Source: Acholeplasmatales bacterium
GTDB lineage: Bacteria > Bacillota_I > Bacilli_A > Acholeplasmatales > Anaeroplasmataceae
Direction: 5' to 3'
DNA: 64,000 nt
Assembly: GCA_017542485.1 (NCBI GenBank)
Contig: JAFXXC010000006.1
Location: 1-64,000, forward strand
This document shows positions 46,057 to 59,781 of this stretch, piece after piece (positions within the stretch are counted from its first letter, which is position 1; the number at the start of each line of letters is the position of its first letter). A program made the translations under genes and the position numbers. The notes below the pieces were generated by a model that saw only the letters and a list, made by a program, of their open reading frames with translations, had not been told where the DNA came from and did no database searches.

Positions 46057-49000
46057 TTATTCAGTAGGGAAAGTAATATCAATCCAATAGAAATAGTTAT
46101 TGCTTGAACATACTATTTCAATAGTTGTCTCTTCAGTACAATCAATTATCTTATGTGCTCCTATTTCACTTGTAAGACCTGACACAGATTCTTTGTTGAT
46201 TGTATAATTTACTCTATAATTACCGTAGATATCAATATGTGCACCAGATGCAACTTTGAATTTTAATTTACCCCCTACTACACTAGAATCAGTTGCTTTA
46301 TTAGGCGTAATTGTTGTTGTATTCTCTAATTGATTATTATCAACATATGATTGATATGTAGCGTGGTCAGCATCACCAAATGCTATTTTTCCCTCTGTAG
46401 TTATAGTATCAAGAACAATTGGTGCAGTAACAGTAATTGTTTTTAATGCTGATTGAGTAATACCATCTTGGCTAATTAAAGATATAGTTATTATTCCATC
46501 TTTTGTCGCTACATATGTTACACTACCATTATTTGCAGGTACAGCTTGGTTAATTCCATCAATAGCAATTCCACCCCATTTACCATTAATGAAGAAACCA
46601 CCTATTACTACTGTAGATCCATTTTTAACATTTAACTTAATTACACTTTCAGATGTAAGTTTTAAGTAAGGACTATTATCTTTACAACCTTCTAAATAGA
46701 TGTAATCGTCACAATTATTTCCTTTAGAAGCATAATCATAAGAATATGATTTTTCAATTAATTTGATAGTCTTTTGTGGTGTTTCAGCAACAAATGAAAT
46801 TACATTTGTTCCAAAAGTATATGTGTATGTTCCTGTACCAGAAGCTTCATATGTTGCTGTATTATTTGAAATAGAATAACTACTATCTGATAATACTGGT
46901 AATTCTACTTCTATTTTATCTACTGGATTTGTACATCCAGTTGCTATACATTCTTTAACAGCTGAACCCTTTGATTCGAATGTTGGATTACTAATTGTCC
47001 ATTCAGTAGCATAAACATGAATATGTTGTCCTTCTTCTAATTTTGGAGTTTCACCAGTAAATTGATATGTTACGCCTTCAAGAACAATAGTATAAATTCC
47101 TTCGCCTTTTTCTGTAGTTGTTGCTGGAATTGTTGAAGAAACACTATATCTATCATCTGTTAATATCGGTAATATTACCTCAACCTTATCTATAGGATCA
47201 TTTTCACAATCCAAACATTCTTTATATGCTAATCCTGTGCCATCTAAAGTAGGAACAGTATATTGCCATTCTCCATAAATATGTTCATGAACTCCAGGTG
47301 TAGATCCGTCTAATTCAAATCCACTAAAATATATTCCTGTTTGACCTGCAAGATCATCAATTGTAATTGTTGCTTTACCATCTTTATAAGTGATTGTTGC
47401 ATTATCTTGACATCCATATCCACTTCCAAACCAATCTACTGAAACTGTTCCGGCCTTATTAAATTTGATAACAGTTTCAAGTTGAACTTGAACAATATGC
47501 TTAGATGCTTCAATACGATATTTACCAAAAATAGTTATATCACCATTAAATAGAGAATCTCCCTCAGGTGCACTATCAGCATTTTGTCTTTCTGCAAATT
47601 CAGTAAAATCATATGATACTGGAACCAATGTTCCAATTGTACCATTCCATGCTTTAGAATATTCAAAATTGCCATTTTTCTTAGCAAAAATAATAGAGAA
47701 ATCTTTATAATTGTTTGAATCACCTAAAGATACTATTTTACATAGATTATCAATTACTCCAGGAGTTGTCTCACTTAAAGCACCCTCACCTGAATTATTA
47801 TATTCAACTAATTGTGATGGTGTTACAGTAGATGCTGAAGACATTTTTGTATATCTAGTATTTTTAGGATCAGAACTACCATATGGTGTTTTAGAATATG
47901 CACTAGAGATATTAGAATTAATTACAGCCATTCGCATATTATCTTTCCAGAAACGTCCTAATGATACTGTACCATCCAACGTATTAGAATCTGCTGTAAA
48001 TGTACATTCATCAAATATATATCCATACTCAATTAAACTTGAAGTAGATCCATTATTATCAGAACCCATTGTTGCGACTACATAACCACCATTTTTTGAA
48101 TCATTTGCTCCAATTGTTTTTAATGTACAATTCTTAAAATATGATGTGGCTGTTGTTCCAAATACATAATCTGTTCTTCCTTCGATGAAGCAATTAGTAT
48201 AAATATGTCTTCCTACTTGTGAATATAAAGTATCATGATAACCTGAAAATCTAACATTATCGAATACTGCTTTATCAGCTTGCACTAAACAAGCAACAGC
48301 TTGTGTTTGTGCACTTCTTGTTTTATCAGTATTAATACTTTCTGCTAATATTTTTGATTCATTAAATCTTGCATTTGTATTCCAATAGTTTTGGAATGTG
48401 ATATTATCTGCATAAAAGCCAGTTGCATTTTTTCTAATTGATACTGATGCTCCACCATCTGTTGAATAACCTACTGTTAATGAATTAGGAGTTCTTACTT
48501 CAGCGAATAAATCATATTCAATGATTGTTTTTGAGGCATCTGTATCCTCACCATGAAGCCTAATATTTGGAATATCAAATTCTACCTTTTCAAAATATTT
48601 ACCAGCTTTAACATTAATTACTTTATCGCTGTTATCAGAAGACCCTAATAATTTAAATACCATTACAGCATCATTTATTCTATTTACAGTTATATTATTT
48701 CCTTCTACTTTAGGTGTAGCATTTGAATCTACTGTAACTATCGCAGCTTCTTTATCTACTCCAGTAAAATCTAATACTGTAATATTATATGAAACTTCTT
48801 TATTTCCATAAGAAATCTTTACTTCTTTTACACCTGCTGATGTCATATCAGGGGCTGTAATCTGAGTATCTGATACTGATAATAAATCAATAGATTCAAC
48901 TCTATCTATATTCTTTTTAACCTTTAATGCTAGATTTGTTGTATTAAAAGTATCTCCAACCTTAAATAGTTTTTGTAATAATTTTGTTTCACGGTTATTT

Positions 49001-49458
49001 GCTTGAATATGATCATATACTAATATTTCTTTAATAGAGTCGTTATCTACAACTACTTTTTCTTCTTTATATCCACATATAGTACATACTCCATTTTCAT
49101 CAAAATTATGATTTTCTACACCATGAATTAATTCGCATCCATCAATTGTACATTCATGCCAGTGATTTTTATCATCATAATTCCAGTCATCGCTCCATAT
49201 ATGATTTGGTAAAACTTGTTGATTATTTGTATCTTCATTTTGTGTAGTAGTTGTAGTACTACTTCCACTATCAGATGTTGATGTAGTTGTTGGAGTAACT
49301 TGAGTTTTAGTTGTTGTTGGAGTAATCTCAGTTGTAGTGGTATTTACTACGTTTGTCCCTGAAGTGTTTGATGGTGTTTCTTCATCACAAGCTGATAAAG
49401 ATATAACTCCTAACATTCCTGTAACAAGTGCTGCTAATTTTATAATTCTTTTTTTCAT
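46057..49458 (-). CDS. Multidomain pectinesterase lipoprotein (carbohydrate esterase family 8)
   Basis: 1,133 residues. The signal peptide ends in LSAC (Cys24). A Thr/Ser-rich stalk (30-75) follows, then a Cys/His segment (HECTIDGC, CTICGY; 101-129). A CE8 beta-helix lies at about 235-620 with Gln386 (QAVA), Asp409 (GYHDTLY), Asp430 (RTDYVFG) and Arg502/Trp504 (LGRFW), the residues that demethylate pectin. His408 replaces the usual Gln of GYQDTLY. Further on come jelly-roll-like modules (about 625-730 and the C-terminus). Between them are two related repeats with paired Cys (KECLDCENDPIDKVEV and KECIATGCTNPVDKIEV). It probably acts with the CE12 enzyme encoded 15 bases upstream in the same transcript. 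Confidence 0.88.
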   Translation of the reverse strand: MKKRIIKLAALVTGMLGVISLSACDEETPSNTSGTNVVNTTTTEITPTTTKTQVTPTTTSTSDSGSSTTTTTQNEDTNNQQVLPNHIWSDDWNYDDKNHWHECTIDGCELIHGVENHNFDENGVCTICGYKEEKVVVDNDSIKEILVYDHIQANNRETKLLQKLFKVGDTFNTTNLALKVKKNIDRVESIDLLSVSDTQITAPDMTSAGVKEVKISYGNKEVSYNITVLDFTGVDKEAAIVTVDSNATPKVEGNNITVNRINDAVMVFKLLGSSDNSDKVINVKAGKYFEKVEFDIPNIRLHGEDTDASKTIIEYDLFAEVRTPNSLTVGYSTDGGASVSIRKNATGFYADNITFQNYWNTNARFNESKILAESINTDKTRSAQTQAVACLVQADKAVFDNVRFSGYHDTLYSQVGRHIYTNCFIEGRTDYVFGTTATSYFKNCTLKTIGANDSKNGGYVVATMGSDNNGSTSSLIEYGYIFDECTFTADSNTLDGTVSLGRFWKDNMRMAVINSNISSAYSKTPYGSSDPKNTRYTKMSSASTVTPSQLVEYNNSGEGALSETTPGVIDNLCKIVSLGDSNNYKDFSIIFAKKNGNFEYSKAWNGTIGTLVPVSYDFTEFAERQNADSAPEGDSLFNGDITIFGKYRIEASKHIVQVQLETVIKFNKAGTVSVDWFGSGYGCQDNATITYKDGKATITIDDLAGQTGIYFSGFELDGSTPGVHEHIYGEWQYTVPTLDGTGLAYKECLDCENDPIDKVEVILPILTDDRYSVSSTIPATTTEKGEGIYTIVLEGVTYQFTGETPKLEEGQHIHVYATEWTISNPTFESKGSAVKECIATGCTNPVDKIEVELPVLSDSSYSISNNTATYEASGTGTYTYTFGTNVISFVAETPQKTIKLIEKSYSYDYASKGNNCDDYIYLEGCKDNSPYLKLTSESVIKLNVKNGSTVVIGGFFINGKWGGIAIDGINQAVPANNGSVTYVATKDGIITISLISQDGITQSALKTITVTAPIVLDTITTEGKIAFGDADHATYQSYVDNNQLENTTTITPNKATDSSVVGGKLKFKVASGAHIDIYGNYRVNYTINKESVSGLTSEIGAHKIIDCTEETTIEIVCSSNNYFYWIDITFPTE

Positions 49459-49473
49459 ATTATTTCCCCTTTT

Positions 49474-51702
49474 TTATTCGTAATATTCAATAATTACATA
49501 ATACATATAAATATTAGAACCAGCAGATTTAAGTCTAAATGTTCCTGCATTTTCAATTACATTTGTAATTTTTGTTTGTGAAGCTGTCATTTCAAAACTA
49601 TATATCTCTGAAGCTTTATCTTTATTTTCTACTTTAATTGTTCTATTATCAGATCCACCACTAACACCAACAATTGTTACTTCACATTTTCCTGTTACTT
49701 CAAATTCTACGTAATAATCTTTATTACCACCTAATAAAATTCCGGCTGTTGTTGCAGAATATTCATTTTGATTTAATTCAAATTTAGTTGAATTTTTACT
49801 TACTTTAGCAAGCTTATTATCTGTTGTGTTATCTACAAAAGTAAATGTATGACCTTCTGATTCTACTGTTTTACCACCTAAAGATGTGTTATTTGTTAAA
49901 TCAGAAAATTGACTTGCTGATAAAACGGCTATTTTAATTGCTTGTGGTCTTGATGACTTAGCTTTTTCTTCATAAGCTAATAAATCGTTATAGTTAGTAA
50001 CTTGAGCTCTTAAATCATAATTTAATGATTCATATACTTCTCTTGCTAATGCACAATAACCAACCCAAGTTTCCCAGTTTGTAGAATTAATACTATCAAG
50101 AGAACCCTTTGCCTTTAAATCATCTATTGCTTTTATTGCAACATCTGGTTCAACATATTTTCTATTAGGGTCAGTTGGATTTATTTCTTCAAATAATGAC
50201 TCTATTTCATTTGCTTTTGAAATTGATAATCTATTTGATGGATTAATAAACTTATAAGGAACTTCCATAATATGCTTTACAAAATCAAAATATTCTATAG
50301 TACCACCGTTATTTACAGTAATACCTTCCATATCATACTTAATAATTGAATCTGCGACATAACATGCAGTTAAATATGCACCATATTTGTTATAATGTGT
50401 TCCTTCCATTTTCTGATATCCAGAATTTGTATTTTTGTATGCACTATCGTAGCCTGTAGGCCATGCACCATTATTGATATCATTTGGAACAATTGCCATC
50501 ATAAAATCTGAAAATTCTTTTGTGGCTGTTTCAAGCATATTCTTTGAGAAAGTAAAATTATCAATTAATAGACAATTTTCTTCTTCGGCTAATTGCTTAA
50601 CTGCTTTAACATATGCAAAATCTTCTCCATGTCTTCCTTCACCGCCTTGAATTTTGCCATTTGAATCAAATGATACTCTTGCTACAGGAGTACATAATAC
50701 TGGAGTTGCTCCTTTACTTCTTGCAAAATCAATATACATTTTTAAATACCCTTTATAAGTGCCCTCGCCGTACTCATAATATGTAGCACCATATTTTGCT
50801 ATTTCTGTTTTTGTTTTTGCTGACATATCGGCTGGTAAATTTGAAGAAGTACTTGCCTTTTCTTGTGGAATTACAACTGGATAAATACCATTTTCATCAG
50901 GTGTACCAAGTGGAACCATTCTTTCATATTTGTAACTAGTGTCATCAAAATTCTTTGTATCATCATCGTTATGACCAAACTGTACAAATAAATAGTCTCC
51001 TGCTTCAATAGTATCTTCTATTGATTTTCCACCATTTTCTGAGAATGAATATTTAGCACCATCAGTTGGAGTGAATAATCTATCTTCGTTAATGAATGAT
51101 CTTGATGATCTACCACCTCTTGCTGCATTTACAACTTTTATTTCTTCATCGAAAAACCAACTAAAATACTGACCCCATCCTCCTATATATTGTTCATCTG
51201 CGTATGTTTGTACTGTTGAATCTCCAGCTAAATAAATAGTAGGTGTTTTATTTGTATCATAATCGACACCTTTATATTCCTTCCATTTTGCGTATAATGT
51301 AATATCACTATTTACAATATTATTAAAATCATATGGAGTTGTTAAAGCTTGATCAGTATACCATCCTTTAAATTTCCATCCGCTTGCCTTTGGATTAGAA
51401 GGTTCAACTGCTTTACCATTTATGTCTACAGCCTGAGTTTTTGGAGAAGTCCCATGACCTAAAGTATCATATTTAACCTCAAAATATTGTTCTTGTTGAG
51501 CCGGCTGAGTTGTAGATATAGTAGTTGTAGTTGTAGTACTACTTCCACCACCAGTTGTTGTAGTTGTTGTAGGGATAATAGTATTAGTTGTTGTTATATT
51601 ACTAGTAGTTGTAGTACTAGTAGTCTCATCACATCCCATAAGTCCAAATAGCGCTAAGCTTGAAGCACCAATAGTTAATAATTTACCAATTCTTCTTTTC
51701 AT
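49474..51702 (-). CDS. Rhamnogalacturonan acetylesterase-like lipoprotein (carbohydrate esterase family 12)
   Basis: 742 residues. The signal peptide ends in LMGC (Cys24), followed by a Thr-rich stalk (28-68). An InlB-type B-repeat (about 72-140; FKGWYTDQALTTPYDF, then ITLYAKW) precedes an SGNH hydrolase (about 155-455). Catalytic blocks are GDST (Ser162), GGRSSRSF (196-203), GHND (243-246) and EGTHYN (His436). Acetylesterases of this family usually have Asp three residues before the His; here it is Glu433. A helical region (about 500-590) and a beta-rich C-terminal module, possibly carbohydrate-binding, follow. The family removes acetyl groups from the rhamnogalacturonan I backbone. The CE8 gene follows 15 bases later. 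Confidence 0.85.
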   Translation of the reverse strand: MKRRIGKLLTIGASSLALFGLMGCDETTSTTTTSNITTTNTIIPTTTTTTGGGSSTTTTTTISTTQPAQQEQYFEVKYDTLGHGTSPKTQAVDINGKAVEPSNPKASGWKFKGWYTDQALTTPYDFNNIVNSDITLYAKWKEYKGVDYDTNKTPTIYLAGDSTVQTYADEQYIGGWGQYFSWFFDEEIKVVNAARGGRSSRSFINEDRLFTPTDGAKYSFSENGGKSIEDTIEAGDYLFVQFGHNDDDTKNFDDTSYKYERMVPLGTPDENGIYPVVIPQEKASTSSNLPADMSAKTKTEIAKYGATYYEYGEGTYKGYLKMYIDFARSKGATPVLCTPVARVSFDSNGKIQGGEGRHGEDFAYVKAVKQLAEEENCLLIDNFTFSKNMLETATKEFSDFMMAIVPNDINNGAWPTGYDSAYKNTNSGYQKMEGTHYNKYGAYLTACYVADSIIKYDMEGITVNNGGTIEYFDFVKHIMEVPYKFINPSNRLSISKANEIESLFEEINPTDPNRKYVEPDVAIKAIDDLKAKGSLDSINSTNWETWVGYCALAREVYESLNYDLRAQVTNYNDLLAYEEKAKSSRPQAIKIAVLSASQFSDLTNNTSLGGKTVESEGHTFTFVDNTTDNKLAKVSKNSTKFELNQNEYSATTAGILLGGNKDYYVEFEVTGKCEVTIVGVSGGSDNRTIKVENKDKASEIYSFEMTASQTKITNVIENAGTFRLKSAGSNIYMYYVIIEYYE

Positions 51703-54181: not shown

Positions 54182-54499
54182 CTATTTCTTTATTGGATTG
54201 ATACTTCCATCTGGATTTGGGTGCTCATCTAAGTACTTTCTAATTTCTTCAGGCTTACCTGATTTAGCACCTGGCTTACATTGACTTAGACTTTCTGCCT
54301 TACCTTCAACAATAGCCTCTGTGAATCCAGCACAACCAGGGAATCCACAAGCACCACAGTTAGCATTTGGTAACATTTTAGCTATATCTTCAATTCTAGT
54401 ATCAATATCAACATGGAATATTTTAGCAGCTATTGCTAAGCCAAATCCAAAGATTAAACCTAAGGCTGCTAATATTAATACGGCCCATAATATTTCCAT
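54182..54499 (-). CDS. rnfB: Minimal RnfB (membrane anchor plus one Fe-S domain, no ferredoxin domains)
   Basis: Only 105 residues. One membrane helix (5-27) is followed by the RnfB-type Fe-S domain with Cys48, Cys51, Cys56 and Cys74 (NCGACGFPGCAGF). Standard RnfB continues with two or more [4Fe-4S] ferredoxin motifs and is 180-330 residues long. Here the chain ends in a Pro-rich tail with a stop codon and an immediate terminator; no reading frame resumes downstream. RnfB is the ferredoxin-accepting subunit of the Rnf complex. The ribosome site GGAGG lies inside the end of the small Cys-rich gene, one base away. Gene order C-D-G-E-A-x-B supports the name. Confidence 0.85.
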   Translation of the reverse strand: MEILWAVLILAALGLIFGFGLAIAAKIFHVDIDTRIEDIAKMLPNANCGACGFPGCAGFTEAIVEGKAESLSQCKPGAKSGKPEEIRKYLDEHPNPDGSINPIKK

Positions 54500-54500
54500 A

Positions 54501-54737
54501 TTAATTTTCCTCCTCTATATCTTTTTCTATATCTTCTTTTAATTTTTCAATATCGAATCTTTCTTTTATACTACATGAAGTATTACTACACATACTGCAA
54601 TTTTCTTCTGTAATCTTTAAGTGCTCACACCCTTTTGGAACTGGCGTTTTTCTATTAATAACAAATGTTACAAAGAATAAGACTATAAAGAATACAATTA
54701 ATGCAATACTAATAATTAGATAACCAGTAGTAGTCAT
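54501..54737 (-). CDS. Small single-helix Cys-rich membrane protein between rnfA and rnfB
   Basis: 78 residues; no family recognised. An N-terminal membrane helix (5-27) is followed by a short basic stretch, then a Cys cluster with Cys37, Cys47, Cys50 and Cys55 (C-x9-C-x2-C-x4-C) and an acidic helical tail (61-78). The C-x2-C-x4-C spacing equals that of the RnfB Fe-S domain next door. It sits 2 bases after rnfA and 1 base before rnfB, with the same direction. It probably belongs to the Rnf complex and may bind a [4Fe-4S] cluster or zinc. This is inference from position and spacing only. Confidence 0.75.
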   Translation of the reverse strand: MTTTGYLIISIALIVFFIVLFFVTFVINRKTPVPKGCEHLKITEENCSMCSNTSCSIKERFDIEKLKEDIEKDIEEEN

Positions 54738-54739
54738 AA

Positions 54740-55324
54740 TTACTTAATCATTCCATTAAATCCTAGGAATGCCATAGCCATTAACGCAGCAGTTACTAAA
54801 GCAATAGGTATACCCTTAAATGCTTTAGGAGTATTTGATGCATCAAGACGATATCTAATAGCAGAGAATACAAATATTACTACAGCGAAACCAACACCAG
54901 TACCAATAGCATTTGCCATTGAATCACCAAAGTTTAATGCTTGATCAGTATTACCTTGAGCAACACCTAATACAGCACAGTTTGTAGTAATTAATGGTAA
55001 GTAAACACCTAATGCTTTATATAATGATGGTGAATACTTCTTAATAATCATTTCAATTAATTGAACTAAAGATGCTATAACTAAAATATAAGTTATTGTA
55101 TCCATAAATGGAATACCAGCAAGCTTCAATAATTCATAAATAGGCCAACAAATTGCACTAGCTAACACTATTACAAATGTAACTGCCAAGCCCATACCTA
55201 AGGCACTAGATGTTTTCTTAGATACACCTAAGAATGGACAAATACCATAGAATCTTGATAAGGTAACATTGTTGATAAGCATAGCATTAATGATACCTAA
55301 TAAAAATGCGATTATCCAATTCAT
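54740..55324 (-). CDS. rnfA: Rnf complex subunit A
   Basis: 194 residues with six membrane helices, the size of RnfA/NqrE. The conserved Cys segments CPFLGVSKKTSSALGMG (N-terminal half) and TTNCAVLGVAQG (middle) are those that hold the membrane [2Fe-2S] or similar iron centre shared with RnfE. It is part of the ion-translocating ferredoxin:NAD+ oxidoreductase. It begins 1 base after rnfE. No departure from the family was noticed. Confidence 0.95.
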   Translation of the reverse strand: MNWIIAFLLGIINAMLINNVTLSRFYGICPFLGVSKKTSSALGMGLAVTFVIVLASAICWPIYELLKLAGIPFMDTITYILVIASLVQLIEMIIKKYSPSLYKALGVYLPLITTNCAVLGVAQGNTDQALNFGDSMANAIGTGVGFAVVIFVFSAIRYRLDASNTPKAFKGIPIALVTAALMAMAFLGFNGMIK

Positions 55325-55325
55325 A

Positions 55326-56219
55326 CTATGCCACCTCCTTAGCAGGTTCTAATTGTTGAGGCTTTTCATCAGCTTTTGTTTCTTCCTTAACCTCAACAGG
55401 TTTTTCTTGTGGTTTATTTTCGCCACTTTCTAAATCTTTTGGCTCTTCAGCTTTTGCCTCTTGAGCTTTCTTTTCTTCTTCAGCTTTCTTAGCTGCTTCT
55501 TCAGCTGCCTTCTTAGCAGCAACCTCAGCGGCTTTCTTTGCTTTTAATTCTTCAATTCTTGCCTTTTCTAAAGCAATTTTCTTATCTTCGCTAACATTAT
55601 GTCTCCATGCGATAAATGCTAAAACACAACCTAGAACTAAGAAACCACCAGCAGATTGAACGAATAAGCTTATTGCAATTGATTCAGGGAATATTTGCCA
55701 CTTTAATGGAGTTGGTAATGGGAAATAATAACCAAATGTTAATGCTCCTGTACCAATTAACTCTCTAATAAATGCAATAATACATAATGCCATTGTAAAT
55801 CCTATACCAGTACCAACTGCATCAAAGAAAGATGCCTTAGGACCGTTCTTAGAAGCAAATGATTCAGCTCTACCTAAAATTATACAGTTAACAACGATTA
55901 GAGATATGAATACACCTAAAGAATCATAAAGTGCAGGAATATAAGCCTGAGTTAACATTTTAATAATAGTAACAAATGTAGCAATAATAACAATGTAACA
56001 TGGAATCTTTACTTCAGCAGGAATAATATTTCTTAATAATGAAATTAAAACATTTGAACCAATTAATACTAATATTACAAGTAATCCCATACCTAAGGCA
56101 GCCTCAACACTCTTTGTTGTAGCAAGTGTAGGACAGCAACCAAGCAATGCGACAAATACTGGATTTTCTTTGATAATACCAGCTAAAAAGGCAGCTTTAC
56201 TAGAAATTTTCTTTTCCAT
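55326..56219 (-). CDS. rnfE: Rnf complex subunit E with a long charged C-terminal tail
   Basis: 297 residues. The first 206 are a normal RnfE/NqrD membrane domain with LLGCCPTLATTKSVE (Cys28/29) and VNCIILGRAE (Cys112). Residues 207-297 form an extra tail rich in Ala, Lys, Glu and Pro: first a likely coiled coil (KKIALEKARIEELKAKKAAE), then a disordered stretch. Most RnfE proteins stop near 200-230 residues. The frame is open and uninterrupted, and codon use looks the same as in the rest of the gene. The tail would be cytoplasmic and may recruit a partner. It starts 2 bases after rnfG. Confidence 0.93.
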   Translation of the reverse strand: MEKKISSKAAFLAGIIKENPVFVALLGCCPTLATTKSVEAALGMGLLVILVLIGSNVLISLLRNIIPAEVKIPCYIVIIATFVTIIKMLTQAYIPALYDSLGVFISLIVVNCIILGRAESFASKNGPKASFFDAVGTGIGFTMALCIIAFIRELIGTGALTFGYYFPLPTPLKWQIFPESIAISLFVQSAGGFLVLGCVLAFIAWRHNVSEDKKIALEKARIEELKAKKAAEVAAKKAAEEAAKKAEEEKKAQEAKAEEPKDLESGENKPQEKPVEVKEETKADEKPQQLEPAKEVA

Positions 56220-56221
56220 AA

Positions 56222-56806
56222 TTATTTGCCTCCTTTCGCATCAGCTAAGGCAATATTAACTAATTCCTTAACTAATGTCGCACCATAAGTGGCACCACAT
56301 TTAACATTAATATTTTCAACATCTTTTTCTGATAAATCACCAACTTCAGCAGTAACACCATCTGAATAAGGATTTAATTCATATACCTCTTCCTTACTAG
56401 AATGATAATTTGCTTTTACATGTGAATTAACTGTAGATGCAAAAGATTGTCCGTTTTCTAAGAACTCAACCTGATATACTGTATTATTAGCTGATATAGC
56501 AACCATTAATGTGATAGCACCATAAGCATTCTTACCTGTTACAGTATATAAAGTTCCTAATACCTTATCAGATGAATCTTTTGCAGTAATCTTTTTAGTG
56601 ATTGCACTATTAACACTATCTAAAGATTCAACTTTTGATTTTTCACTATCATAATTTGAATAAATAGCTTGAATAGTTTCTGTTTCCTTCTTTTCGTCAT
56701 TTTTAGCAATAACAGGTGAAGTTAACATATTAAGTGCTGCAAGAATTGCTGCACAAACAAGGGCAATTGCTCCTAATATAGCAGAAATTTTAAAATATCC
56801 CTTCAT
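56222..56806 (-). CDS. rnfG: Rnf complex subunit G (FMN-binding)
   Basis: 194 residues from the ATG at 56806, which shares one base with the rnfD stop (TAATG). One N-terminal membrane helix (8-30) anchors an extracytoplasmic FMN-binding domain. The flavinylation site reads CGATYGAT (170-177), where Thr173 would carry covalent FMN; many relatives have Ser in place of Cys170. A longer in-frame start at 56890 would run inside rnfD and is rejected. It passes electrons within the Rnf complex. Confidence 0.93.
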   Translation of the reverse strand: MKGYFKISAILGAIALVCAAILAALNMLTSPVIAKNDEKKETETIQAIYSNYDSEKSKVESLDSVNSAITKKITAKDSSDKVLGTLYTVTGKNAYGAITLMVAISANNTVYQVEFLENGQSFASTVNSHVKANYHSSKEEVYELNPYSDGVTAEVGDLSEKDVENINVKCGATYGATLVKELVNIALADAKGGK

Positions 56807-57906
56807 TAGAACCAACCTCCCATCACTGAAGCTGATACTATACAGCAGATAACTACCATATAGCAGCCAACTACTAAGCATTGCTTCCAAGTATATGTAT
56901 TTGGTTTTCCACGCATAAAGTGATCAATTGTAGGAACTAACATATTTGCAATTAAAATTGAGAATGCTGCACCTTCTGGATATGCACCAACAACTCTAAT
57001 TAATGCTGTAATTGTACCTGCAATTGTACCAAATAAAATTCTACCAAATTTAGATGTAGGTGATGTTACTGGATCTGTAACCATAAATACAGCAGCAAAT
57101 AACATACCACCTGATAAAATTTGATACATCCAAACTTCAAATACATTTATATTTGAATCAATCTTTAAGAAACTTACTGCAGCTATTAGCATTACTACAG
57201 CAAATGATAATAAATAACTTAAGAATGATCTTAAATCAGCACTTCTTCTTACAAATAAATATAAAGCACCTACTAATATTAATAAAGCACTTACTTCACC
57301 CATTGCACCAGGAACATTACCTAAGAATAAGTCAAGTAATGAGTAGCTCATATTACCAAGATTACCTTTAACTGATGCTAAAGGTGTAGCACCTGCTATT
57401 ACGGCACCGCCTGATAAAATATTTGCCTCACCTATTTTAGTACCAAAACAAATAGTTGCGAAAATTCTTCCTGATGCGGCTGGATTAAATATATTACTAC
57501 CTAACCCACCAAATACCATCTTACCAATAATGATACCAAATGCAGCACCTGTTAATACAACATATGGGCTACAACCAGCAGGCATAATTAATGCAAAAAT
57601 TAATGCAGAAATAAGTGGTGCTAAAATATTATTAATTGTATATGTTGATTTTACTTTTTGGAATCCTTCCTTAGAGAATAATTCCTTTACCTTCATTCCT
57701 TTTGGCCAATGAATGAACATATGAATAAGTAGCTCAAAGCCTATCATTGCAGCTATACTTATTAAAAATACATAAATACCATTCCATCCATTCTGAATCA
57801 TCGCAAATACTGTGACAGGCATTAAAGCTATAATAACATCTGTCATCATTCTTGCTACTGAAACATTCTTACGAATATATGGAGATGATTGTGGAACTAA
57901 CTTCAT
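56806..57906 (-). CDS. rnfD: Rnf complex subunit D
   Basis: 366 residues with about nine membrane helices. The covalent FMN site AGATPLA (Thr174) and the segment GGLGSNIFNPAASGRIFA are typical of RnfD/NqrB. The ATG at 57906 is chosen over an in-frame start at 57930 because GGGAGGAG lies 6 bases upstream. The ribosome site overlaps the end of rnfC, so translation is likely coupled. It is one of the ion-pumping core subunits. Confidence 0.94.
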   Translation of the reverse strand: MKLVPQSSPYIRKNVSVARMMTDVIIALMPVTVFAMIQNGWNGIYVFLISIAAMIGFELLIHMFIHWPKGMKVKELFSKEGFQKVKSTYTINNILAPLISALIFALIMPAGCSPYVVLTGAAFGIIIGKMVFGGLGSNIFNPAASGRIFATICFGTKIGEANILSGGAVIAGATPLASVKGNLGNMSYSLLDLFLGNVPGAMGEVSALLILVGALYLFVRRSADLRSFLSYLLSFAVVMLIAAVSFLKIDSNINVFEVWMYQILSGGMLFAAVFMVTDPVTSPTSKFGRILFGTIAGTITALIRVVGAYPEGAAFSILIANMLVPTIDHFMRGKPNTYTWKQCLVVGCYMVVICCIVSASVMGGWF

Positions 57907-57919
57907 ACTATTCTCCTCC

Positions 57920-59221
57920 CTACATCGCAAGTTTCTTTGCCTTACGGCAATACTCAGTTAAATGAATCTTTGATGTGCAAGTATATGAACACATACCACA
58001 TAAAATACAAGATTTTATATTAAGCTTATTTTTAATAGAATCTTTATCATTATTCTTTACAGCTTGCATAATTTGAACAGGCTGTAATCCAGCAGGACAA
58101 GAATATACACAAGATCCACATCTAACACATGGTTCTTCAACCTCAGGCTTTTCATCAAGAATAATACATGATGTACAAGTCTTAGTAATAACTGCATCAT
58201 CACGAACTAGGTTAGCACCCATCATAGGTCCACCTAAGATTAATACTTTATTCTTATCTTCATTAATATATCCACCACATTGGGCAATTACTTCTGTTAA
58301 TGAAGTACCTATTCTTAAACGGAAGTTTGTTGGTGTTTTAATGCCATCGCCTGTTAATGTGAAATTTCTTTTCATAACAGGTTGATTTCTCTTGATGGCT
58401 CTCCACAAACCAGCTACTGTTGATACGTTGAATACCATTACTCCAAGCTTTGCAGGTAATACTCCGGCAGGAACCTTAATTCCTAAACCAGTCTTTATCA
58501 TTTCAATTTCCCATCCTTGAGGATAATAGTTACCAACTCTATGGATTTCAACAGGAGCTCCAGGGAATTGTGTCAATTCCGCTGTTAAAGTATCATATAA
58601 GTCTTGATACTTTTTCTTAATACAAATTACTACTCTTTTTGCTTTAAATGCTTGTAAAGCGTATAAAGAGCCTTGAATTACTCTTCTTGGATGCTCCATT
58701 ATCATTCTATGGTCTGCAGAAAGATATGGTTCACATTCAACACCATTGATACAAATCGTATCAATAGGATCAGTTGTTTGAAATTTAATATATGTTGGGA
58801 ATGATGAACCACCTAAACCAACCAATGAACAATTTTTAGTAATTTCAACAAAATCTTCTCTAGTTAATTTTGCAATTTCTTCATCGGTTCTTTCTTTAAT
58901 AGATTCATCTTCTGTGTCTTGCATGTCATTTTTTATCTGAACAAATTCAGTTAATTTACCGCTTCTATGAAATTTCTTTACAAATCCTACTACTTCGCCA
59001 GATACAGTAGAATGGAAAGGTTGCTCAAAAAACGGACCCTTTCTTAAGCCAATTACTTGACCCATTTTAACCTTGTCACCAACTTTAACATAACATTCAC
59101 CCTGTCCACATCTTGCATTGGTAATTGCTATATAGACATATTCAGGATTAACGTATCTAACTGTTGGCAAACTGTTAGTCAGACGTCTAATATTAGCTAT
59201 CTGCCTAGTTTTAGCTATCAA
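57920..59221 (-). CDS. rnfC: Rnf complex subunit C
   Basis: 433 residues, the short RnfC form without the long Ala/Lys tail of proteobacteria. The NADH/FMN site has GLGGSSFPT (135-143) and INGVECEPYL. Two [4Fe-4S] motifs follow: Cys365, 368, 371, 375 and Cys405, 408, 411, 415. RnfC is the peripheral NAD-reducing subunit. It overlaps the upstream ANTAR regulator gene by 4 bases (ATGA), so both are translated together. Confidence 0.95.
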   Translation of the reverse strand: MIAKTRQIANIRRLTNSLPTVRYVNPEYVYIAITNARCGQGECYVKVGDKVKMGQVIGLRKGPFFEQPFHSTVSGEVVGFVKKFHRSGKLTEFVQIKNDMQDTEDESIKERTDEEIAKLTREDFVEITKNCSLVGLGGSSFPTYIKFQTTDPIDTICINGVECEPYLSADHRMIMEHPRRVIQGSLYALQAFKAKRVVICIKKKYQDLYDTLTAELTQFPGAPVEIHRVGNYYPQGWEIEMIKTGLGIKVPAGVLPAKLGVMVFNVSTVAGLWRAIKRNQPVMKRNFTLTGDGIKTPTNFRLRIGTSLTEVIAQCGGYINEDKNKVLILGGPMMGANLVRDDAVITKTCTSCIILDEKPEVEEPCVRCGSCVYSCPAGLQPVQIMQAVKNNDKDSIKNKLNIKSCILCGMCSYTCTSKIHLTEYCRKAKKLAM

Positions 59222-59781
59222 ATTAAATCACCCCTTAATATAATCTTTGATACCTCTAACTTAGAAATTCTTTCATCCATTGCATATTTCAAAATATATT
59301 TATAAGTCTCTTCTTCACTCATATTCTTTTTATTCATTAGATATAATTTAGCTTTAGTAACAAATTTGCTTTCTTCTAACTTATCTTTATACTTGTTAAG
59401 TTCATCTGTTACCTTATCAATGATATTAATGCTTCTCGCCATTATTGTAATAATATCATTTAATACTTCTTCCTTACCAGGCTCTATCATATAAAACCTT
59501 GGATTATTAGTCGCATTAAACAAACTTCCATATTCTAAATTTCTACTAATATAGATGATTCCGCATCGTTTTGCATTTAATAGCATATCAAACAAATTAT
59601 AATAATTGCCTATATAACTACTATGTACAATAATAAAATCAACCGGATGAGCACAAATATATCCATAAACATCTTTAGACGAAATATCCAAAATTTTAAC
59701 GTTATATTTTATTTTATCTAAACATCTATCAATATTTCTTATAAAAGATTGATCATTAGAAAGAACATATATTCTTTTCAT
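59218..59781 (-). CDS. ANTAR-domain RNA-binding regulator with receiver-like N-terminus
   Basis: 187 residues. The C-terminal 50 residues (about 130-182) match the ANTAR fold of AmiR/NasR antiterminators: SKFVTKAKLYLMNKKNMSEE, then YILKYAMDERISK. The N-terminal half (1-115) resembles a response-regulator receiver, but the usual phospho-acceptor Asp after the third strand is His53 (DFIIVHSS), so it is probably a pseudo-receiver. ANTAR proteins bind RNA hairpins with six-base loops and block termination. It directly precedes rnfC with a 4-base overlap, making it the first regulatory gene of the rnf transcript. A hairpin covers its own ribosome site. Confidence 0.85.
   Translation of the reverse strand: MKRIYVLSNDQSFIRNIDRCLDKIKYNVKILDISSKDVYGYICAHPVDFIIVHSSYIGNYYNLFDMLLNAKRCGIIYISRNLEYGSLFNATNNPRFYMIEPGKEEVLNDIITIMARSINIIDKVTDELNKYKDKLEESKFVTKAKLYLMNKKNMSEEETYKYILKYAMDERISKLEVSKIILRGDLI

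Follow-up and report, generated by a model that had tools for sequence, protein, structure and literature searches.

What does a 78-residue cysteine protein do that is encoded in the middle of an rnf operon, between rnfA and rnfB? The question is posed by a 64-kb stretch of DNA from an Acholeplasmatales bacterium, hereafter the window, in which the rnf genes lie on the minus strand in the order rnfC-D-G-E-A-(X)-B. We call the inserted gene rnfX and its product RnfX. The initial annotation had read it as a one-helix, Cys-rich protein tightly coupled to its neighbours, and had proposed that it is an extra electron-carrying subunit which may compensate for a shortened RnfB.

The rnf operon of the window and its additional gene

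57920-59221, minus strand: rnfC (TIGR01945, 339.7 bits)
56806-57930, minus strand: rnfD (PF03116, 272 bits)
56222-56890, minus strand: rnfG, start probably internal (the TTG start in the list lies within rnfD; PF04205 weak; TIGR01947 below cut-off at 38.9 bits)
55326-56219, minus strand: rnfE, whose long, charged C-terminal tail is devoid of Cys (TIGR01948, 222.6 bits, above cut-off)
54740-55324, minus strand: rnfA (TIGR01943, 240.6 bits, above cut-off; cysteines of FYGICPF and TTNCAV retained)
54501-54737, minus strand: rnfX, encoding a 78-residue, single-transmembrane Cys protein (open reading frame, conserved family, selection)
54651-54731, minus strand: predicted transmembrane helix of RnfX, residues 3-29 (AlphaFold, block-mean pLDDT 82-97 over residues 1-30)
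54573-54629, minus strand: Cys block of RnfX, C37-x9-C47-x2-C50-x4-C55 (invariant in two alignments of relatives)
54509-54514, minus strand: AGGAGG ribosome-binding site of rnfB, within the 3' end of rnfX (direct sequence reading)
54182-54499, minus strand: rnfB, short form of 105 residues, with a transmembrane segment and one FeS domain and without a ferredoxin domain (PF04060, E 5.6e-13; TIGR01944, 75.5 bits)

The RnfB that adjoins RnfX thus lacks the 2[4Fe-4S] ferredoxin domain. All four cysteines of the [2Fe-2S] cluster held by RnfA and RnfE, the ligands of which are named in PMC11889175, are present in the window. Directly upstream of rnfC, at 59218-59781 on the minus strand, an ANTAR-domain (RNA antiterminator) protein is encoded. 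At least 10 named relatives have a homologue at this position (e.g. L034, L037, L045), which suggests that the rnf operon is controlled by antitermination. Elsewhere on the minus strand of the window (46057-51702) lie the genes of two large lipoproteins, one pectinesterase-like and one resembling GDSL/SGNH esterases of the rhamnogalacturonan-acetylesterase kind.

The gene rnfX is spaced 2 bp from rnfA and 1 bp from rnfB. In the AlphaFold model of its product (mean pLDDT 76.6, pTM 0.38), helix 3-29 is followed by a Cys region of low confidence and a C-terminal helix. The first helix ends at N-R-K, an end which, by the positive-inside rule, would face the cytoplasm. The last three cysteines are spaced as in the RnfB motif NC-GA-C-GFPG-C. 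The architecture and Cys spacing of the initial annotation are borne out in the window and its near relatives, the first Cys proving variable in a wider sample.

The family was not matched above cut-off by any Pfam or NCBIfam model, and a search for solved-structure relatives found none. Homologues share 22-79% identity, all four cysteines are kept in 30 of 30 loci from related genomes, and dN/dS is about 0.07-0.28, considering only pairs with unsaturated dS. Homology, Cys retention and low dN/dS together mark rnfX as a real gene, conserved and under purifying selection.

Distribution of RnfX and its linkage to rnf

How closely is RnfX tied to Rnf? Its immediate neighbours are rnfA and rnfB in all 30 loci from related genomes, at distances of -14 to +9 bp. 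A scan of named GTDB genomes with one peptide pattern yielded 80 RnfX loci, a set biased towards four-Cys forms because the pattern included the first Cys; they span Anaeroplasmataceae, Acholeplasmatales, Izemoplasma, Haloplasma and many Erysipelotrichales, and 79 of the 80 have the order A-X-B. The constant company of a short RnfB, which had been singled out as a point to check, was found almost without exception: RnfB measures 92-112 residues in 78 of these 79 loci, and the remaining one, from Haloplasma, encodes an RnfB of 187 residues with two FeS-domain matches, in a genome with a second X. Two such matches within one RnfB (L080, L189) correspond to a tandem duplication, and Haloplasma-type RnfB proteins of 183-194 residues without a ferredoxin motif occur in L080, L151, L163, L166 and L240.

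A less biased draw comprised 395 genomes of the class, with an E-value below 1e-4 defining a strong match. Strong RnfX was found in 182 genomes, 178 of which have rnfA, and in only 4 of the 187 genomes without rnfA. Two of these four have rnfC, so that Rnf is probably present there; the two without rnfC are G227, which is 96% complete, and G247, a fragmentary metagenome-assembled genome. The RnfX-like gene L358 (G227:C15) thereby stands in a nearly complete genome lacking both rnfA and rnfC.

Conversely, 30 genomes have an rnfA-type match without a strong X. Eight of them, all Bacilli, encode a long, clostridial-type RnfB with CxxCxxCxxxC ferredoxin motifs, which measures about 260-290 residues when complete; searching these eight with another and broader profile revealed no convincing X. 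Five genomes tested from a group with weak rnfA scores are without RnfB, and an NqrF-like gene in the three operons read identifies these as NQR-type; seven further genomes of the 30 have similarly weak rnfA scores. In the Acholeplasma-like loci L320, L322 and L323, the NQR-type operon, made up of NqrC/D/E-like genes and one NqrF-like gene, has neither RnfB nor RnfX, and a PF04400 search of one Acholeplasma-like genome, G044, returned no NqrM. Three of the 30 carry a miniature X between rnfA and rnfB (L205, L207, L216), G115 has an unlinked X, four show weak X scores, and in two (G113, G272) there is still no X.

Homologues are thus not found mainly outside rnf loci, and the claim that RnfX is an Rnf-associated protein holds on linkage and co-occurrence alike (30/30, 79/80 and 178/182). 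Together with its retention after leaving the operon, described below, this linkage and the tracking of rnfA mark RnfX as a component dedicated to Rnf.

RnfB type, the RnfE tail and phylogeny

The near-perfect pairing of RnfX with a one-cluster RnfB, and its absence from the long-RnfB genomes, are what recommend the idea of a seventh, electron-carrying Rnf subunit. An Fe-S cluster on RnfX would, together with the single cluster of RnfB, replace the ferredoxin domain and relay electrons from ferredoxin to RnfA-RnfE; the four cysteines kept in all related loci favour the same idea. Were this so, the Rnf lineage of Anaeroplasma, Acholeplasmatales, Izemoplasma, Haloplasma and Erysipelotrichales, with its one-cluster RnfB and RnfX as seventh redox subunit, would possess a different ferredoxin entry module, which is conceivable, if doubtful.

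However, long-RnfB Bacilli, which are not short of clusters, carry a similar module on another subunit. In all their loci that were read (12 loci, including some double views of one genome, and G397), RnfE bears, beyond its last helix, a Cys module with the motif CGGxCxxCxxxxC or CxGCPx5Cx4C. This tail was seen in L143, L148, L149, L155, L157, L206 and L325, all Bacilli with long RnfB, and in L362 from Subdoligranulum, a member of the Clostridia. It occurs in 0 of 123 short-RnfB loci. Judged by sequence, these Bacilli have a Cys module near the RnfA-RnfE cluster in one of two alternating forms, RnfX or an RnfE tail. The presence of the tail in long-RnfB operons weakens the proposal that RnfX compensates for a short RnfB.

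The tail is absent from RnfE of Acetoanaerobium, Monoglobus, Fusobacterium, Parabacteroides, Persicobacter and Vescimonas, and the solved RnfE chains of A. woodii and C. tetanomorphum, with 196 and 201 residues, are too short to include it. Of the non-tailed Rnf operons of A. woodii, C. tetanomorphum, Parabacteroides, Fusobacterium, Monoglobus, Acetoanaerobium and Vescimonas, those that were read have no RnfX between rnfA and rnfB.

The short-RnfB sequences occupy a single clade (support 0.947) of an RnfA tree with 132 tips, and the long-RnfB Bacilli either join A. woodii and C. tetanomorphum (support 0.79) or branch close to the base. Within the short-RnfB clade 119 of 121 tips carry the X label, and G115, one of the remaining two, was later found to have X. 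Since this is a single clade, the correlation between RnfX and short RnfB is strong but reflects few independent events. We therefore dropped the constant association with short RnfB as independent evidence, and the compensation proposal loses further ground, as does electron transfer by RnfX, the association coming down to one clade split.

Thermotoga maritima offers a natural comparison: its RnfB of 10.56 kDa, with one predicted [4Fe-4S] cluster, resembles the short type described here, and its Rnf complex is active and accepts clostridial ferredoxin (PMC7414866). RnfX is not reported there, and the operon is described as rnfCDGEAB, with no mention of a seventh gene (PMC7414866). An active one-cluster RnfB in this setting argues both against a need for compensation and against RnfX as an electron carrier.

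Relocated, extra and reduced forms

Several families (f7, f9, f19, f23 and f24) have the short rnfB directly after rnfA, and X is encoded elsewhere, at recurring chromosomal sites: beside a dCMP-deaminase-like gene, or flanked by a phosphomutase-like gene and a uracil-DNA-glycosylase-like gene (names assigned by eye). No iron-sulfur or iron-uptake genes were found beside the unlinked RnfX of Rnf genomes, the neighbours, again by eye, resembling dCMP deaminase/aspS or phosphomutase/uracil-DNA glycosylase genes. That RnfX is kept after relocation argues for a functional tie to Rnf which is independent of the operon. As a fixed stoichiometry is unlikely to be maintained from unlinked genes, such retention would suit a helper better than a stoichiometric subunit, and it speaks against the electron-carrying role.

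Extra RnfX-like genes in genomes of the Izemoplasma and Haloplasma type (L179, L180, L181 and the second copy of L189) adjoin CsoR-type regulator-like, two-component-like and metal P-type ATPase-like genes, as judged by eye.

The Cys complement itself varies. Among 78 X proteins of the class sample, 57 have four cysteines ending in C-x2-C-x(4-5)-C, 19 are reduced to a C-x2-C-x(3-6)-C core and two have a longer last spacing; the first Cys is what some of these members have lost. The mini-forms between rnfA and rnfB consist of about 38-55 residues, with one helix and CxxCxxxC. The 19 three-Cys proteins count against compensation for RnfB and against the electron-carrier proposal, which is possible but doubtful overall; together with the mini-forms, they suggest a protein that handles metal, not one that permanently holds a cluster by four ligands.

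Alternatively, RnfX could be a structural or assembly subunit, its helix packing by those of RnfB, RnfG, RnfA or RnfE and a Zn-type or disulfide-bonded Cys module holding the mobile FeS domain of the short RnfB. The transmembrane segment and helix of the AlphaFold model, the position of the gene beside rnfB, and the fact that loss of a Cys and expression from an unlinked site are both tolerated speak for such a part. However, a C-x2-C-x(3-4)-C core is retained even in the smallest forms, suggesting that a metal site, and not the helix alone, is under selection, and we regard a structural role as unlikely.

Relation to known families

The transmembrane segment of RnfB (PF04060) is likewise followed by C-x2-C-x4-C in identical spacing, and the profile of X resembles that of the RnfB N-terminus (hhalign probability 88-94, exceeding 60 of 60 column shuffles), a likeness that agrees with an electron carrier. 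The score is carried by transmembrane composition and one motif, and may reflect either a shared motif or a shared origin. Unlike the FeS domain of RnfB (C-x2-C-x4-C-x16-C), RnfX has no distal Cys some 16 residues further downstream; where it has a fourth Cys, this lies upstream. It is not matched by PF04060.

The nearest named family is PF12669 (FeoB-associated Cys-rich; best member E 1.3e-4), which also combines a transmembrane segment with a short Cys module and occurs either as a separate protein or as the C-terminal domain of FeoB (PMC8749426), much as RnfX compares with the RnfE tail. A profile comparison restricted to the region after the transmembrane segment exceeded 40 of 40 shuffles, weakly. 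Could RnfX then belong to this family, its place in rnf operons being incidental and its task general iron uptake? Weak PF12669 similarity is seen in 16 of 24 members, but none of those scored exceeds the cut-off of 27 bits (11.9 for the RnfX of the window, 22.6 for the best member scanned). Moreover, RnfX is located in rnf operons, the neighbours in 79 of the 80 named loci being rnfA and rnfB and not feoB; it tracks rnfA across the 395 genomes; and several Bacilli with RnfX have separate, true PF12669 proteins as well (e.g. G084, G108, G131). General iron uptake is already disfavoured by the rnf linkage, and we consider it very improbable.

A further parallel is NqrM (PF04400, DUF539), the maturation factor of Na+-NQR. 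Like RnfX it is small, with one N-terminal helix and a Cys cluster right after it, and is encoded with the sister complex; PMC12174285, citing Kostyrko et al. (2016), reports this small membrane protein as necessary for the [2Fe-2S] cluster of NQR. RnfX of the window and its near relatives share the single N-terminal transmembrane segment followed by four cysteines, but differ in Cys spacing, the NqrM sequences examined reading TM-(K/R)(S/T)I-x-G-S-C-x11-C, and in being encoded between rnfA and rnfB rather than with nqr genes. PF04400 matched neither RnfX of the window nor seven variants (E<=5-10), and was not among the 25 commonest families in the scan of relatives. Homology with NqrM, attractive by eye, was rejected, as the hhalign score after the transmembrane segment was no better than that of shuffled columns.

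A proposed role for RnfX

What, then, might RnfX do? We tentatively favour, at somewhat less than an even chance, a membrane-tethered factor that handles iron or Fe-S clusters for the RnfA-RnfE [2Fe-2S] site, resembling NqrM in action, though the profiles do not support homology with it. On balance, RnfX is more likely such an iron-handling helper for Rnf than a substitute for the electron carriers lost from RnfB; a true electron-carrying subunit is the chief competing reading. It would be an accessory protein specific to Rnf complexes with a short RnfB, with its helix beside RnfA-RnfE and its Cys module on the cytosolic face. The module may bind Fe(II) or a transferable Fe-S cluster, and could deliver the iron or cluster to the membrane-internal [2Fe-2S] site or stabilise that site, in parallel to NqrM in Na+-NQR. 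Its place would be taken in some other Rnf operons by a comparable Cys module joined to the C-terminal end of RnfE.

The proposal builds on architecture, linkage, co-retention, Cys conservation and alternation with the RnfE tail, all read from genomic sequence. RnfX lies between rnfA and rnfB, follows rnfA throughout the class and is retained where its gene has moved to other conserved sites, and the alternative Cys tail is placed on RnfE, which together with RnfA holds the [2Fe-2S] cluster. PF12669, its nearest named family, likewise comes separate or fused; extra copies of RnfX adjoin genes that by eye are CsoR-like and metal P-type ATPase-like; and NqrM provides a precedent in view of the four cluster cysteines that RnfA and RnfE of the window retain.

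The main difficulty for the helper model lies in the many Rnf complexes with neither X nor an RnfE tail: as many operons lack the tail and, where read, RnfX, the RnfA-RnfE cluster can form without a Cys module. Also against the model are the NQR-type operons of Acholeplasma-like genomes, which have no RnfX and, in the one searched, no NqrM, as well as the unsupportive NqrM profile comparison and a cytosolic placement that derives from the positive-inside rule.

RnfX is conserved, dedicated to Rnf and apparently undescribed; in the openly accessible papers searched, no description was found of RnfX, of a seventh Rnf gene or of an RnfE Cys tail. RnfX bears on the assembly of the membrane-buried [2Fe-2S] cluster of Rnf and on how a one-cluster RnfB takes up electrons from ferredoxin. 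Its hosts include cultured anaerobes such as Anaeroplasma bactoclasticum, Absicoccus porci, Catenisphaera and Paracholeplasma, and heterologous six-gene Rnf constructs from these lineages may miss a needed component.
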